64,000 nucleotides of DNA, taken from Alphaproteobacteria bacterium. Lineage in GTDB: Bacteria; Pseudomonadota; Alphaproteobacteria; UBA9219. The stretch spans positions 1 to 64,000 of the forward strand of contig WREW01000005.1 of NCBI GenBank assembly GCA_009779135.1, given 5' to 3'. Positions 5,191-55,141 of this stretch are shown piece after piece. Numbering within the stretch: the stretch's first letter is position 1; each line of letters begins with the position of its first letter. Below the pieces are notes generated by a model. The model was not told the origin of the DNA. It was given only the letters and a program-made list of their open reading frames with translations, and ran no database searches. The position numbers and the translations under genes were made by a program.

Positions 5191-7174
5191 GGCTTTATCC
5201 GGCCCCGTTCTGGTTCTGGCCGGCGCGGGTACGGGCAAAACGCGCGTTTTAACCACGCGGCTTGCGCATCTTCTGGCCACAGGCAAAGCCATGCCGGGCC
5301 AGATCATGGCCGTGACCTTCACTAACAAAGCCGCCACTGAAATCCGCGAACGTGTCGCCGCTCTTTTAGGCCGCTCGGTGGAGGGCTGGTATTTGGGCAC
5401 TTTCCATGCTTTGGCCGCGCGGCTTTTGCGCCCTGTGGCCGAGCGCGTGGGGCTTAAACCATCTTTCACCATTTTAGGCACGGACGATCAGCTGCGCCTG
5501 ATTAAGCAGCTTTTGCAAGCTGAAAACATCGACGACAAAAAAAACCCGCCGCGCATGATTTTAGCCTTTATCGAGCGCTGGAAAGATCGCGGCCTGACCC
5601 CTTCCGATGTGCAGCATGAAAAAAGCGACATCGCGCACGGCAAACTGCCAAAGCTTTATGCGCTTTATCAGGAACGTCTTGCCTCCCTCAACGCCTGCGA
5701 CTTTGGCGATCTGCTTTTGCATCATTTGACTTTGATGCGGCAGGATTCTGATATTCTGGCCGCGATCCACAACCGCTTTCATTATCTTCTGGTCGATGAA
5801 TATCAGGACACCAACATTGCGCAATATCTGTGGCTGCGCCTGATCGCGCAGAAAAATCGCAATATCTGCGTTGTCGGCGATGAAGACCAATCCATCTATG
5901 GCTGGCGCGGCGCTGAAATCGGCAATATTCTGCGCTTTGAAGAAGACTTCCCGGGCGCGCAAGTGATACGCCTTGAAGAAAACTACCGCTCAACAGGCCA
6001 TATACTGGGCGCCGCCGGACAATTAATCGCCCACAACAGCATGCGCCTTGGCAAAAACCTCTGGACGGCAGCCGAGCCGGGCGAAAAAATCCATATCCGC
6101 ACGCTCTGGGACGGCGAAAAAGAAGCGCAATGGGTCGGCGATGAAATTGAATCTCTGGAGCGCCGCCATATTCCGCTTTCCTCCATCGCCATTATGGTGC
6201 GCGCCGGTTTTCAAACGCGCCTGTTTGAGGAAATCTTTATCATGCGCGGCATTCCCTACCGCGTCCTTGTCGGCGCGCGTTTTTATGAACGGCAGGAAAT
6301 CCGCGATGCTCTGGCCTATTTGCGGCTTGTGCGCTCAAGCGATGATGATTTGGCTTTTGAGCGCATTATCAACCTTCCCAAACGCGGTATCGGGCCGGCA
6401 GCGCTTGCGCAAATCCACCGCTTCGCCAAAGAAAATACGATGTCTTTAAGTGAAGCTTCCCTGCGTCTGGCCCAGAGCGATGCGCTTAAACCTAAATTGC
6501 GCGCCACGCTACAAAATCTGATTGAGCATTTCACAAGATGGCGCGGGCTTCTTGAAGCCCTGCCCCATACGGAAGTTGCACAAATTATTCTTGAGGAGTC
6601 CGGCTATACCGGCATGTGGCAGGCCGACAAATCTCCCGACTCGCCCGCGCGGCTTGATAATCTCAAAGAGCTTATCACGGCCATGGCCGGTTTTGACACG
6701 CTTGAAGCCTTTCTTGAGCATGTCAGTCTTGTGATGGAAGTCACGGAAAACAACCGCGACAATCAGGTCAGCATCATGACGCTGCACGGCGCCAAAGGTC
6801 TTGAGTTCCCTTATGTCTTTTTGCCTGGCTGGGAAGAAGAAATCTTCCCTTCACCCCTGAGCTTGACGGAAAACGGCCTAAAAGGCCTTGAAGAAGAGCG
6901 CCGCCTTGCCTATGTCGGCCTCACCCGCGCAAGAGAGCGCGCTTTTGTCAGCCATGTCGCAAGCCGTTTTATACATGGCCGTGGAATAAACCCTCTGCCC
7001 TCACGCTTTATCGGCGAGATTCCCGAAGAACATAGCGAACGCTTTTCTTCCTTCACCCAAAGCGAGCCTGTTGAGCGCAGCCCGACCCTGTGGCACCAAC
7101 TCAAAGCAACCCAAAGCCGCACAAAAACCGCCCAGATCGAAGGCCGCGCAAGAGAGATCAAAGAAGAAACTTAA
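5135..7174 (+). CDS. uvrD: UvrD/PcrA-type superfamily 1 DNA helicase
   Basis: This is an ATP-dependent 3'-5' helicase of the UvrD/PcrA/Rep group, acting in nucleotide excision and mismatch repair and in removing proteins from DNA. Visible motifs in order: LNPAQRQAVEA (Q motif), AGAGTGKTRVLTTRL (Walker A), TFTNKAATEIRER (Ia), VDEYQDTN (Walker B), GDEDQSIYGWRGA (III), RLEENYRST (IV), VSIMTLHGAKGLEFPYVF (V) and EEERRLAYVGLTRARE (VI). It has about 679 residues, near the usual size. I chose the ATG at 5135 because MHVPPYMDHLNP aligns with the usual N-terminus; the next ATG is at 5153. It overlaps the upstream gene. PcrA-like naming is equally acceptable. Confidence 0.93.
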   Translation: MHVPPYMDHLNPAQRQAVEALSGPVLVLAGAGTGKTRVLTTRLAHLLATGKAMPGQIMAVTFTNKAATEIRERVAALLGRSVEGWYLGTFHALAARLLRPVAERVGLKPSFTILGTDDQLRLIKQLLQAENIDDKKNPPRMILAFIERWKDRGLTPSDVQHEKSDIAHGKLPKLYALYQERLASLNACDFGDLLLHHLTLMRQDSDILAAIHNRFHYLLVDEYQDTNIAQYLWLRLIAQKNRNICVVGDEDQSIYGWRGAEIGNILRFEEDFPGAQVIRLEENYRSTGHILGAAGQLIAHNSMRLGKNLWTAAEPGEKIHIRTLWDGEKEAQWVGDEIESLERRHIPLSSIAIMVRAGFQTRLFEEIFIMRGIPYRVLVGARFYERQEIRDALAYLRLVRSSDDDLAFERIINLPKRGIGPAALAQIHRFAKENTMSLSEASLRLAQSDALKPKLRATLQNLIEHFTRWRGLLEALPHTEVAQIILEESGYTGMWQADKSPDSPARLDNLKELITAMAGFDTLEAFLEHVSLVMEVTENNRDNQVSIMTLHGAKGLEFPYVFLPGWEEEIFPSPLSLTENGLKGLEEERRLAYVGLTRARERAFVSHVASRFIHGRGINPLPSRFIGEIPEEHSERFSSFTQSEPVERSPTLWHQLKATQSRTKTAQIEGRAREIKEET

Positions 7175-7181
7175 AAAAACC

Positions 7182-7283
7182 TGTCATTGCGAGGAAAGCC
7201 GGCGCAGGCGGCTTGACGCGGCAATCTCGGCAACGTCGCAGAGATTGCCGCGTCAGGCCTAAAGGCCTTCCTCGCGGGTGACA
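7182..7283. repeat. Palindromic repeat, family A copy 1
   Basis: A long imperfect inverted repeat lies between uvrD and ispA. It begins TGTCATTGCGAGGAAAGCC and ends with the mirror-image CTTCCTCGCGGGTGACA, with inner arms GACGCGGCAATCTC and GAGATTGCCGCGTC around a short loop. The end near 7275 has GGG in place of the CAA seen in other copies, so this copy has diverged. Related copies lie at 28460, 31365, 63022, 63073 and 63481. It starts 7 bases after the helicase stop, and transcripts from either side could fold into a long hairpin. Confidence 0.85.
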
Positions 7284-7292
7284 TGAGTTATC

Positions 7293-8192
7293 TTACGACT
7301 TCCGATCCACCACAAAAACCGCAATATCTTCAAGCTGACCCGCGCGGCCTTCGAAAATGCTCAGATGCGCGATGGCTTGCTCTGAAAGAAGTCTGGCTTG
7401 CTGCAAGGCACGGTCATGGCCTAGAATGCTGACAAAGGTCGCCTTGCCCGCCTGTTCATCCTGCCCCACGGACTTGCCTGTTTCCTCGGGCGAGCCTTGA
7501 AGATCCAGAAGATCATCAATGATCTGAAAAGCAAGCCCCAGATCATGCGCGTAAGCGCGCAGCGCGCTCAGATGCGGCGCGGGAGCTTTGCCCAAAATCC
7601 CGCCCATTTCTGTGGCGCATGCAATCAGCTCCCCCGTTTTCATGCGTTGCAGGCGCGTGATCGCGCCGATGTCAAAGCGCGTGGTCTCGGCGATAAGATC
7701 AAGCATCTGCCCGCCGACCATGCCGCGCGCGCCGGCCGCATGCGCAAGTAAAGCCACCATGGCAATCCGCACTTTGGGATCTTCATGCGTGCGGGCGTCA
7801 GCCAAAATTTCAAACGCCATAGTCAAAAGAGCGTCGCCCGCCAAAATGGCCGTAGCTTCGTTAAACTTCAAATGCGTTGTAGGCTGCCCGCGCCGCAAAT
7901 CAGCATTGTCCATGGCAGGGAGATCGTCATGAACAAGCGAATAGCAATGCAAAAACTCAATCGCGGCGGCGGCGCGAAAAGCGCTTTCATCGCTGACGCC
8001 GTAAAGCCGCGCGGTGCTGACGGTCAAAAAAGGCCGCAAACGCTTGCCACCGGCCAGAACACTGTAGCGCATGGCATCAAAAAGCCGCTGTTCGGCAAAA
8101 TCCGATTTTGGCAAAAGGCGGGCCATGACTTCCGTTACCGAAGCGGCAACCTGCGCCATAGCGGTTGAAAGTGAAGGACTTACTGAAGGCAT
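7293..8192 (-). CDS. ispA: Geranyl/farnesyl diphosphate synthase
   Basis: This polyprenyl synthase condenses IPP with DMAPP or GPP to make farnesyl diphosphate for quinones, undecaprenyl carriers and other isoprenoids. The 299-residue product has GGKRLRP near residue 49, the first Asp-rich motif DDLPAMD, the GQPTTHLKF loop, GGQMLDL, KTGEL and the second Asp-rich motif DDLLD followed by GKSVGQDEQAGKATF. The start has AGGAG 9 bases upstream. It lies 15 bases downstream of xseB, the usual arrangement; dxs, which often follows, is absent here. Chain length (C15 versus C20) cannot be settled by eye, but the short-chain pattern favours farnesyl diphosphate. Confidence 0.93.
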   Translation of the reverse strand: MPSVSPSLSTAMAQVAASVTEVMARLLPKSDFAEQRLFDAMRYSVLAGGKRLRPFLTVSTARLYGVSDESAFRAAAAIEFLHCYSLVHDDLPAMDNADLRRGQPTTHLKFNEATAILAGDALLTMAFEILADARTHEDPKVRIAMVALLAHAAGARGMVGGQMLDLIAETTRFDIGAITRLQRMKTGELIACATEMGGILGKAPAPHLSALRAYAHDLGLAFQIIDDLLDLQGSPEETGKSVGQDEQAGKATFVSILGHDRALQQARLLSEQAIAHLSIFEGRAGQLEDIAVFVVDRKS

Positions 8193-49788: not shown

Positions 49789-49796
49789 CCACTTCT

Positions 49797-49906
49797 TGTC
49801 ATCCTCGGGGCTTGCGAAGCAAGAGCCCGGGGATCTGGCGTTAGAGAAACGTGAATCGAGCGTCAGATCCCCGGATCAATCGCTTCGCGCTTGTCCGAGG
49901 ATGACA
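49797..49906. repeat. Palindromic repeat, family B copy 1
   Basis: An imperfect inverted repeat about 110 bases long starts TGTCATCCTCGGGGCTTGCG and ends with CCGAGGATGACA, with inner arms GGGGATCTGGCG and CAGATCCCC. It lies between the MDR gene and the convergent hypothetical gene, ending 11 bases before its stop. The outer arms match those of the repeat at 55085-55141. Confidence 0.85.
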
Positions 49907-49916
49907 AAAAATGTTC

Positions 49917-50612
49917 CTACATCCCACCACCAGGCTTAAAGTTCATCTTCACGCCGGCTTTTTCCCATTTCTGATTGGTGGCCGCTGTCGTGGCAACATA
50001 TTGCTGCACAGCTGCAGACTGCATAACATGCCCATAATCGGTCGGCGCGCGGTTTGAAGATGATTTCTCCGCCGCCACCATGTTGTTAATCAGTCCGGGC
50101 AGGCCACCATCTTCAACCTTGCCGCTGCGAATCCCTTCATCCTGACGTTCCTTGGGCCCCCAGAAAAGTTCGGTGACGCGGAGATCTTCACTGCTTTTCT
50201 TCTTTTTCTTTTTGGCCATGCCTGTGCGCTCATCAAGCTGGTCTTCATCATCCTCTGCGGGCCATTTGACATCCTCCCAGTAGATATAAAGGAAATCCTG
50301 AATGGCCGAGGATATAAAAGGAAAATTGGTCAAAACATCACGAAACATCACCGCAGCGTTGAAGATGGATTCTTCTTCAAGCTTGCGAATGGCTTCTTTC
50401 TGTTCGTCCGTGTTGATGCCTTTGCGCGCTTCCATCACGGGAACCATGCAATTATCTTTAAGCTTGCGCGCAAGCTCGCCGATCACATCGCTGCGCTCAA
50501 GCTCACCATTTTCGCGGTAGATCTCGGCAATGGTGCGGAAACGCTTGACAAGACATTCAGACCAGTACCACCAGTCATTGAAGGGCGCTTTTTGTGCATA
50601 GGTTTGTGCCAT
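49917..50612 (-). CDS. Hypothetical protein, GPxR-EGI-SG family paralogue A
   Basis: The 231-residue protein belongs to no family I know. It shares with its neighbour the N-terminal WWYWSECLVKRFRTIAEIY (WMYFTQVVLDRLSTVTQIY in the other), and the block LFWGPKERQDEGIRSGKVEDGGLPGLINNMV (LFRGPERREEEGIGSGMVEHGRLP there). Between them is a Lys/Glu-rich linker with a run of six Lys (MAKKKKKKSS) absent from the neighbour. It lacks a signal peptide or membrane segment. The two genes are separated by 25 bases and presumably cotranscribed. Confidence 0.75.
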   Translation of the reverse strand: MAQTYAQKAPFNDWWYWSECLVKRFRTIAEIYRENGELERSDVIGELARKLKDNCMVPVMEARKGINTDEQKEAIRKLEEESIFNAAVMFRDVLTNFPFISSAIQDFLYIYWEDVKWPAEDDEDQLDERTGMAKKKKKKSSEDLRVTELFWGPKERQDEGIRSGKVEDGGLPGLINNMVAAEKSSSNRAPTDYGHVMQSAAVQQYVATTAATNQKWEKAGVKMNFKPGGGM

Positions 50613-50637
50613 AATTTTCTTTCCTTAAAAATGAGGT

Positions 50638-51258
50638 CTAGTCCATACGTCCGGCCGTGCGGAGAAACGCGCCATTCTGCTTGGCCCAAAGCCGCGCCAG
50701 ATCTTCCCGCCGCATAACGTCGCCCTGCGCCGCCGCCGGTTTTTTCACGCGCGCCGCGCGCTCGCCACCGGCGGATTCAAGATCGACCATGGCAGCAAGC
50801 TTGGCCGGCAGCCTCCCATGCTCCACCATGCCCGAGCCGATCCCTTCTTCCTCCCGCCTTTCGGGGCCGCGAAAGAGAATGGTCGCCACTTTGCCTGCGC
50901 AATTTTGCATCCAAGGCGATTTCAAAAGAAGCTGCATATCCGCAGACCATATAGGCAGTTTGGCCAGAACATCCACCATCGCAAGCTGGATCTGCGCAAT
51001 CAAACCTTCCTCAAGCGCGGATGTATCCTGATCTTCCTCAAACAGGCCGAAGGCAGGCTCATCCGTCAGCGTATGGAGCTGCCGCATCACCGCAACCGTC
51101 ATGCCGAGTTTTTCCTGACGCTCTTTTTCGCGCATATAGGCATCCACATGCGGAGGATTTTTATAAATCTGCGTTACAGTGGAAAGCCTATCAAGCACCA
51201 CTTGTGTAAAATACATCCACTCATCATAAGAAGGCTTGATTGTCTCAAAGCCGGACAT
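50638..51258 (-). CDS. Hypothetical protein, GPxR-EGI-SG family paralogue B
   Basis: The 206-residue protein is the second member of the pair: it has the aromatic N-terminal helix (DEWMYFTQVVLDRLSTVTQIY), a central helical region, and the shared GPERREEEGIGSGMVEHGRLPAKLAAMVDLE block near residues 128-160, then a basic tail. It lacks the poly-Lys linker of paralogue A. It begins 21 bases after the DUF805 gene on the same strand. Function unknown; duplication with different linkers suggests a heteromeric pair. Confidence 0.75.
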   Translation of the reverse strand: MSGFETIKPSYDEWMYFTQVVLDRLSTVTQIYKNPPHVDAYMREKERQEKLGMTVAVMRQLHTLTDEPAFGLFEEDQDTSALEEGLIAQIQLAMVDVLAKLPIWSADMQLLLKSPWMQNCAGKVATILFRGPERREEEGIGSGMVEHGRLPAKLAAMVDLESAGGERAARVKKPAAAQGDVMRREDLARLWAKQNGAFLRTAGRMD

Positions 51259-51279
51259 GAGATCCTCTAGTGTTTAAGT

Positions 51280-51651
51280 TTATGCATCGACAACAGGGTC
51301 GCCATAAGCGTTTTTCCCTTCCTGACCTTCCATGGCAAACCAGAAAACCAAAATGATCCAGCCCACAACAGGAACCAGCCCAAGCAACTGCCACCAGCCC
51401 GTTTTGCCCAGATCATGAAGGCGCCGCGCGCCAATGGCCAGTCCGGGCGCAAGCAAAGCCAGCGCAAGCAGCGTCTGAAGAACAGGCATATGAAGGATTT
51501 CATCAGCAAGCCTGACAATAAGACTTACGGCAGCATAGCACAGCACGAAATACCAAAATTGCGAGCGCAGCGCGCGACCATTAAAATCAGCATATTGCGT
51601 CTTCAAAACATCCACAAAATACTTGCGGAACAAAGCGACCATTTTTTCCAT
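51280..51651 (-). CDS. DUF805 membrane protein
   Basis: The 123-residue protein is a DUF805 (YhaH-like) inner-membrane protein: YADFNGRALRSQFWYFVLCYAAVSLIV, LLALALLAPGLAIGARRLHDLGKTGWWQLLGLVPVVGWIILVFWFAMEG, with the conserved RRLHDLGKTGWW loop. Three to four membrane segments are visible. It heads the run leading into the two unknown paralogues and is separated from aroC by 90 bases. Function of DUF805 proteins is not established. Confidence 0.88.
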   Translation of the reverse strand: MEKMVALFRKYFVDVLKTQYADFNGRALRSQFWYFVLCYAAVSLIVRLADEILHMPVLQTLLALALLAPGLAIGARRLHDLGKTGWWQLLGLVPVVGWIILVFWFAMEGQEGKNAYGDPVVDA

Positions 51652-51741: not shown

Positions 51742-52812
51742 TTATAAAAGAGCTTTTGCTTTCAATTTGGCATCGGCCAGCACGCAGGCCAGCATCGCTT
51801 CACCAATGGGCACGGCGCGAATGCCAACGCAAGGATCATGACGCCCCTGCGTTTCTATCATGATTTCCTCACCCGCTTCATTCACGGTGCGCCGTGGCAT
51901 AAGGATAGAGCTTGTCGGTTTCAGCGCAAAGCGCACAACCACATCCTGCCCTGTCGAGATGCCTCCCAGCACGCCGCCTGCGTGATTGGAAAGAAAAACA
52001 GGCCGCCCGTCTTCACCACGGCGCATTTCATCCTGCCCCTGATCGCTCGTCATCGCCGCCAGCGCAAAGCCGCTGCCGATTTCAACGCCTTTGACCGCGT
52101 TGATCGACATCATGGCGCATGCAAGCGCGCTATCAAGCTTTTCATAAACCGGATCGCCCCAGCCGGCCTCAAGGCCGCTTGCATGAAGCTCAACAACCGC
52201 GCCCACGGCATTGCCTTCTTTTTTCACCGCTTCAAGATACTGCGCCCAAAGCAAAGCCGCCGTTGCGTCCGGCGCAAAAAAAGGATTGCGCTGCGTTTCC
52301 TGCCAATCCCACTTCGCGCGATCTATTTTATGAGGCCCCAGTTGAACCACAGCGCCACGGATTTGAACCTTTTCACCAAGCACTTTGCGCGCAAGCGCGC
52401 CTGCCGCCACACGCGCGATGGTTTCGCGCGCGCTTGAACGGCCACCGCCGCGCGGATCGCGCACCCCATATTTCACGCTGTAAGTATAGTCGGCATGCCC
52501 GGGTCGAAAACTATGCTTGATAGAATCATAATCGCCCGGGCGCTGATCTTTATTGACCACAAGCATGCAGACCGGCGCGCCTGTCGTCACACCTTCATAA
52601 GTTCCTGAAAGAATCTCAACGCGGTCATCTTCCTGCCTTGCCGTGGTAAAAGCGGATTGCCCGGGCTTGCGCTGATCCAAAAAAGGCTGAACATCAGCCT
52701 CGGTAAAAGGAAGACGCGGCGGACAGCCATCCACAACAACCCCGATAAAAGGCCCGTGACTTTCTCCAAAACTTGTAAAACGAAAAAATGATCCGAAACT
52801 GTTGCTGGCCAT
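51742..52812 (-). CDS. aroC: Chorismate synthase
   Basis: AroC makes chorismate from EPSP in a reaction needing reduced flavin, the end of the common aromatic pathway. The 356-residue product has [20 protein letters not shown] at the start, [46 protein letters not shown] and [24 protein letters not shown], all signatures of the enzyme. It lies 3 bases after fabI on the same strand. Nothing unusual was seen. Confidence 0.97.
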
Positions 52813-55084: not shown

Positions 55085-55141
55085 CTTGTCATCCTCGTGG
55101 CTTGCCTGCCGACAAGACGGGCAAGCCACGAGGATGACAAG
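55085..55141. repeat. Palindromic repeat, family B copy 2
   Basis: A nearly perfect inverted repeat: 22 bases at the left (starting CTTGTCATCCTCGTGGC) pair fully with 22 at the right (ending GAGGATGACAAG) around a 13-base loop. It lies 10 bases after the M15-like gene and 61 bases before the DUF924 gene. It could act as a terminator-like stem but lacks a T-run. Confidence 0.9.

Follow-up and report, generated by a model that had tools for sequence, protein, structure and literature searches.

P1 and P2, adjacent paralogous proteins of an uncatalogued orphan family in one order of Alphaproteobacteria

Organization of the locus

The window analysed here is a stretch of 64,000 nucleotides from an alphaproteobacterial contig (WREW01000005.1, positions 1 to 64,000 of the forward strand, assembly GCA_009779135.1). 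Two adjacent genes, referred to as P1 and P2, lie in it together with the neighbours and protein features listed below. The gene names aroC, fabI, map, radC, rpsB and nusA used in this work are presumed identities, given by recognition of the sequence and not by a family call.

49917-50612, minus strand: P1 gene, 231 aa, the hub paralogue in the proposed reading (open reading frame list, orthologue alignment, structure model)
50511-50588, minus strand: P1 residues 9-34, first helix (alignment and structure model)
50196-50213, minus strand: P1 six-lysine (K6) run, residues 134-139, after an acidic stretch (sequence and alignment)
50097-50159, minus strand: P1 motif GPKERQDEGIRSGKVEDGGLP, residues 152-172 (sequence and alignment)
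49920-49943, minus strand: P1 C-terminal tail NFKPGGGM, residues 224-231, conserved in orthologues
50638-51258, minus strand: P2 gene, 206 aa, fast-evolving paralogue, predicted helical bundle
51160-51228, minus strand: P2 residues 11-33, first helix, counterpart of the P1 aromatic helix, with W14 and Y32 in common
50806-50868, minus strand: P2 motif GPERREEEGIGSGMVEHGRLP, residues 131-151, a loop between helices 122-130 and 149-163
50641-50655, minus strand: P2 C-terminal tail AGRMD, residues 202-206, conserved in orthologues
51280-51651, minus strand: DUF805 membrane protein gene, 123 aa (Pfam DUF805, E=3.8e-27), local neighbour
51742-52812, minus strand: aroC (chorismate synthase), recurrent neighbour upstream of P2
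52816-53670, minus strand: fabI (enoyl-ACP reductase), recurrent neighbour upstream of aroC

P1 and P2 are separated by 25 bases, and P2 and the DUF805 gene by 21 bases, all three being on the minus strand; the reading frames, gaps and coordinates agree with the initial annotation. The gene downstream of P1 is convergent. Directly 3' of the P1 stop lies a nested palindromic element (49790-49913) with arms at 49790-49808/49895-49913 and 49827-49845/49856-49874, and similar arms (GTCATCCTCGT) are found again at 55088-55138. It may represent a dispersed repeat that also serves as terminator between the convergent genes.

Paralogy and the shared motif

The suggestion that the two adjacent genes are paralogous was confirmed by each comparison applied. 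BLASTP aligned P1 with P2 over 217 columns at 25% identity (E=2e-14), the profile-profile comparison covered 163 columns (E=1.4e-24), and the local alignment score of 133 stood far above those of 1000 shuffled sequences (mean 31, maximum 61). The likeness extends beyond the motif over most of both proteins. Judged from their sequences, P1 and P2 are thus true paralogues. The conserved block that had been reported is real, with a corrected spacing at its start: the two proteins have GP-x2-R-x2-EGI-x-SG-x-VE-x-G-x-LP in common, not GP-x-R-x2-EGI. A third paralogue, in which GIADGWPRxGYL replaces the EGI-SG block, adjoins P2 in G025 and G027 of family f3 (L082:9491-10129, minus strand, and L095:769-1395, plus strand). 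In an alignment of 26 chosen rows covering all three kinds of paralogue, the positions conserved in 90% or more of the rows are, in P2 numbering, W14, Y32, P102, Q109, F129, G131, G139, I140, G143, G148, L150 and P151. These are hydrophobic residues, glycines, prolines and one glutamine; no catalytic residue set common to the family was found in this alignment, and no Glu or His, the residues expected as metal ligands in a ferritin-like protein, reached the 90% level in it.

Predicted structure

Both proteins are supported as hydrophilic and helical, in line with their earlier description as soluble. The P2 model (mean pLDDT 85.3, pTM 0.78) contains helices at residues 11-33, 44-71, 79-112 and 122-130, followed by the motif loop, a helix at 149-163 and a less certain end. 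The P1 model, of lower confidence (mean pLDDT 67.0, pTM 0.62), resembles it in layout except that an acidic/K6 linker is inserted; the predicted parts are a helical bundle, the linker, the motif loop, a poorly modelled C-terminal region and the conserved C-terminal tail. P1 is acidic overall (pI 5.4). Its first helix is amphipathic and aromatic (moment 0.40), and in 28 orthologues none of residues 9-17 (APFNDWWYW) varies, which means that the helix is conserved there on every face; in the first helix of P2 little besides W14 and Y32 is kept. The six-lysine linker noted earlier in one of the proteins is likewise present. Among the 28 P1 orthologues the longest K/R run found anywhere in the protein has 4-7 residues, and the alignment places the run in the linker; the copy from G132, a genome outside the order, has no K6 run. 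In 26 of the 28 P1 orthologues KP occurs within the last 8 residues, behind a stretch that is little conserved; 18 of 27 P2 orthologues have [AS]GR, a hydrophobic residue and D, E or N at the extreme C-terminus. The conserved tails of both proteins are regarded as putative short binding motifs.

Fold searches against the PDB returned nothing above background for either protein, which does not establish a new fold, and the same was true of P2 in a viral structure library. P2 had no Foldseek match at E<=0.001. Its best VIA-align row was 6n63, an iron-binding protein with a similar arrangement of helices (Z 10.7, rmsd 3.6, 129 aligned residues); however, the identity is 7% and the Z score is under the value of about 13 which the tool advises for helical bundles. 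For P1, ferritins were among the rows of low rank. In general form the two proteins resemble S23-like and related small helical bundles, but 2rld (Z 6.4 with P2) and 2gsc (Z 6.4 with P2, 7.0 with P1) reached only middling scores, with no PDB profile sequence match to P1 or P2.

Family searches

The earlier statement that the motif belongs to no known family held at the thresholds used, and no match to a characterised family emerged from the profile searches. P1 and P2 matched no family in Pfam at E<=10, nor in NCBIfam, PHROGs or PADLOC, and the Pfam rows of single orthologues were scattered, none of them better than E 0.025. Profile searches of the PDB yielded only chance-level rows. No paper was found in a literature search with the motif string, or in one combining four terms, which is a weak test; a further search returned papers on unrelated subjects. 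None of the libraries searched contains the family as such; conserved orphan families restricted to one lineage are, as a kind, already known. In our view P1 and P2 represent a real, uncatalogued orphan family that spans the order and in which one protein is strikingly conserved.

A pair of small neighbouring genes that belong to no known family could also be phage or plasmid genes, a toxin-antitoxin pair or a defence system. This explanation is barely credible here: P1, the protein searched in these collections, was unmatched in viral contigs, phages and plasmids, both proteins were unmatched in PHROGs and PADLOC, and the genes recur in a housekeeping-gene setting with vertical inheritance. 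An origin from phages, plasmids or defence systems is therefore strongly disfavoured.

Distribution across genomes

The order was sampled with 33 genomes, including that of the window. A P1 of full or nearly full length was found in 28 of them. P2 is also present in 28, in 27 cases with more than 190 aa and in G018 split over two contigs. Both genes are carried by 27 of the 33 genomes; the pair is thus not missing from all the relatives, as it would have had to be for the initial annotation to be refuted. P1 was not found in G004 and in G008 and G015 of genus g4, which are 63-80% complete, nor in G020, which is 99% complete and whose match is its P2; G003 has only C-terminal pieces of P1, at contig ends. 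P2 was not found in G003, G004, G007, G008 and G015, the sole match in G007 being the motif of P1 itself. Thus, G007 has P1 without P2, and G020 has P2 without P1. In G007 a 64-aa reading frame (L085:9156-9350, minus strand) lies 13 nt before P1 and ends in SGGIE like some P2 tails; it matched the P2 profile at E=0.03 in a search of two loci, and could possibly be a P2 remnant.

The P1 profile, applied to 385 genomes drawn from the class, recovered five members of the order and G132. With the family profile the same draw gave additionally a truncated homologue of 146 aa in G133 and two chance-level rows. Outside the order, the class draw contains both genes in G132 and one truncated homologue in G133, each of which is the sole sampled genome of its own order. 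Nothing was found in 398 genomes of the phylum besides two members of the order and three weak rows. In the genomes searched, the family is almost confined to one branch of the Alphaproteobacteria. Several weak matches were set aside. Those of G185, G398 and G730 in the class and phylum searches (E about 0.02) were treated as chance, as was that of G667 (E 0.0016), where the frame holds no gene of plausible length. A match of P2 alone in G086 (5.5e-4) was also rejected, the 17-kb stretch concerned having no P2 or family profile match (best E 1.3 and 0.38).

Gene neighbourhood

The recurrent gene order is fabI-aroC-P2-P1-map, in some genomes followed by radC. In 20 of the 27 genomes that carry both, P2 stands directly before P1 on one strand, at a distance of 8-107 nt. 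In G017 and G018 the pair is broken by contig ends in a way compatible with the same order; for the spacing figures the P1 start of G018 was set by eye. P1 and P2 are on different contigs in G006, G014, G019 and G027. In G023 a gene of the histidine-phosphatase family separates P2 from P1, and an M48 peptidase gene precedes P2 (L080:8098-9057 and 6313-7302, respectively, both on the plus strand). In G132 the two genes are 94 kb apart. Two tandem reading frames beside P1 of G132 (L120:2158-3489, minus strand) share LRQQNNCAD and KLGILHGL by eye, and one of them had no match in Pfam. In genus g10 (L083, L093, L096) related small reading frames of cluster c20 occur between fabI and aroC, three each in G024 and G028 and one in G030; one of them has, by eye, a start like that of a signal peptide and many cysteines.

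The neighbourhood comparison upheld the adjacency of P2 and P1 and not that of DUF805. The gaps of 21 and 25 bases and the common strand in the window had suggested a three-gene unit, in which DUF805 (PF05656) would recruit a P1-P2 complex to the membrane. However, no more than 5 of the 33 genomes sampled from the order have DUF805. Besides the window, G013 is the one genome in which it is close to the pair, there on the opposite strand; a co-directional DUF805 gene adjoining the pair is seen in the window alone. It is an unrelated membrane protein, adjacent in the window genome and not conserved with P1 and P2. The three-gene arrangement is therefore local, and membrane recruitment through DUF805 is very improbable.

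The downstream flank of P1 raises the question of a link with translation. Map follows P1 in 13 of the 26 genomes with a visible flank, the count leaving out G012 and G031, in which P1 is at a contig end. The P1 stop overlaps the map start as TGATG in five of the 13 (G007, G016, G017, G018, G021), the gap is 2-3 nt in three more (G019, G023, G025), and it ranges from 8 to about 73 nt in the remaining five, with the map ATG of G011 8 nt past the P1 stop. P1 might accordingly be a translation factor, for example an adaptor that uses its acidic/K6 linker to deliver methionine aminopeptidase to the ribosome. The way in which P1 runs into map, its core-like conservation, and its position near rpsB in G132 and before a putative nusA in G006 (both recognised by sequence) speak for this idea. 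Eukaryotic MetAP2 has a charged N-terminus, which the acidic-then-lysine linker of P1 may be seen to resemble by analogy. On the other hand, map is not found after P1 in the other 13 visible flanks, among them those of the window genome and of all five members of family f2, the K6 run is missing in G132, and P1 is acidic. Moreover, aroC and fabI belong to the same cluster without such a link, so that co-transcription may mean only a shared operon. On balance, a role of P1 in translation is improbable. A fuller form of this idea would make P1 an order-specific core translation adaptor, produced together with methionine aminopeptidase, docking on the ribosome or nascent chain via its acidic/K6 linker and aromatic helix, and recruiting processing factors by its NFKPGGx tail and P2. 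This version is a distinctly long shot; if true, a core machine would have gained in P1 a component restricted to one lineage.

Evolution and constraint

In a tree of 60 rows, P1 (29 rows) and P2 (28 rows) each fell on one side of a branch, with supports of 99/99 and 83/85, respectively; the support for the P2 branch is not strong, and long branches make it unsure where the third paralogue and the G133 row belong. The G132 copies fell among P1 and P2, respectively. Since the two sides include these copies from outside the order, the duplication would most simply predate the order. Within the order, the two genes appear to have been inherited vertically.

The two paralogues differ greatly in rate. 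The mean identity of P1 was 66.7% vs 72.4% for fabI (136 genome pairs), 67.1% vs 73.6% for aroC (120 pairs) and 70.6% vs 72.8% for map (78 pairs), while P2 reached 36.4% vs 73.0% for fabI (105 pairs). In the five genomes compared, dN was small beside a near-saturated dS for both genes, which indicates that both P1 and P2 are selected genes. Throughout the sampled order P1 has changed little more than fabI, aroC and map, a degree of conservation that points to a constrained function in some central process. The distances of P1 and P2 are correlated (0.82, with a partial r of 0.57 after removal of fabI and aroC) in 15 related genomes; the effect of shared descent is perhaps incompletely removed, and such a correlation counts as weak evidence.

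The slow evolution of P1 also bears on another explanation, namely that P1 and P2 are polyhydroxyalkanoate (PHA) granule proteins, either unusual phasins or synthase activators, with the aromatic helix lying on the polymer surface. PHA granule proteins such as Phasin_2 (PF09361) are likewise small, mostly helical and found in genomes with PHA synthase, and the helical character of P1 and its amphipathic aromatic first helix would suit such a role. PHA synthase (PhaC_N) was matched in 33/33 genomes of the order, a presence which is not specific, as the control genome of Caulobacter vibrioides matches too. A Phasin_2 gene is on the P1 contig about 4 kb away in G009 (C29:146476-146772) and about 8 kb away in G006 (C40:3302-3595); none was so close in the other places listed. 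However, ordinary, genuine Phasin_2 genes are present elsewhere in 32 of the 33 genomes, and no phasin replacement is therefore needed. Phasins evolve fast, unlike P1, which is nearly as slow as aroC. In the places listed, every PhaC_N match lay more than 20 kb from P1, the closest of them at about 21 kb (G024, G028). The Phasin_2 profile matched neither P1 nor P2 at E<=10, and 28 P1 and 27 P2 orthologues gave no Phasin profile match at E<=1. A function on PHA granules is thus unlikely.

Proposed function of P1 and P2

The interpretation we tentatively favour, at somewhat short of an even chance, is that P1 and P2 are non-enzymatic helical-bundle adaptors or scaffolds which act as a heteromer with P1 as its hub. 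We picture the glycine-rich EGI-x-SG loop as closing the bundle and P1 as docking on a strongly conserved component of the cell via its invariant first helix APFNDWWYW, the K6 linker and the C-terminal NFKPGGx tail; P2 would tune or position P1. Only W, Y, P, Q, F, G, I and L are retained at the 90% level or above in the family alignment, which speaks for adaptors rather than enzymes. The lack of a family-wide catalytic set, the strong conservation of P1, the charged linker and the conserved tails would together fit adaptors or scaffolds.

The heteromeric complex proposed in the initial annotation is plausible from the adjacency of P2 and P1 in 20 of the 27 genomes, although its recruitment to the membrane by DUF805 found no backing. 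Adjacency, co-occurrence and correlated distances would fit a P1-P2 heteromer with P1 as the hub. Against it stand G007 with P1 alone and G020 with P2 alone, the separate contigs in G006, G014, G019 and G027, the intervening gene in G023, the separation of 94 kb in G132 and the very different rates of the two proteins. The missing K6 run in the G132 copy and the low confidence of the P1 model also count against the reading as a whole. The partner of P1, once found, would show how a lineage adds a core component which most other Alphaproteobacteria lack. P1 considered alone has many invariant charged residues, including the glutamates E19, E79, E148, E159 and E182 and no invariant His, and given these residues it may be a candidate enzyme or contain a candidate binding site.
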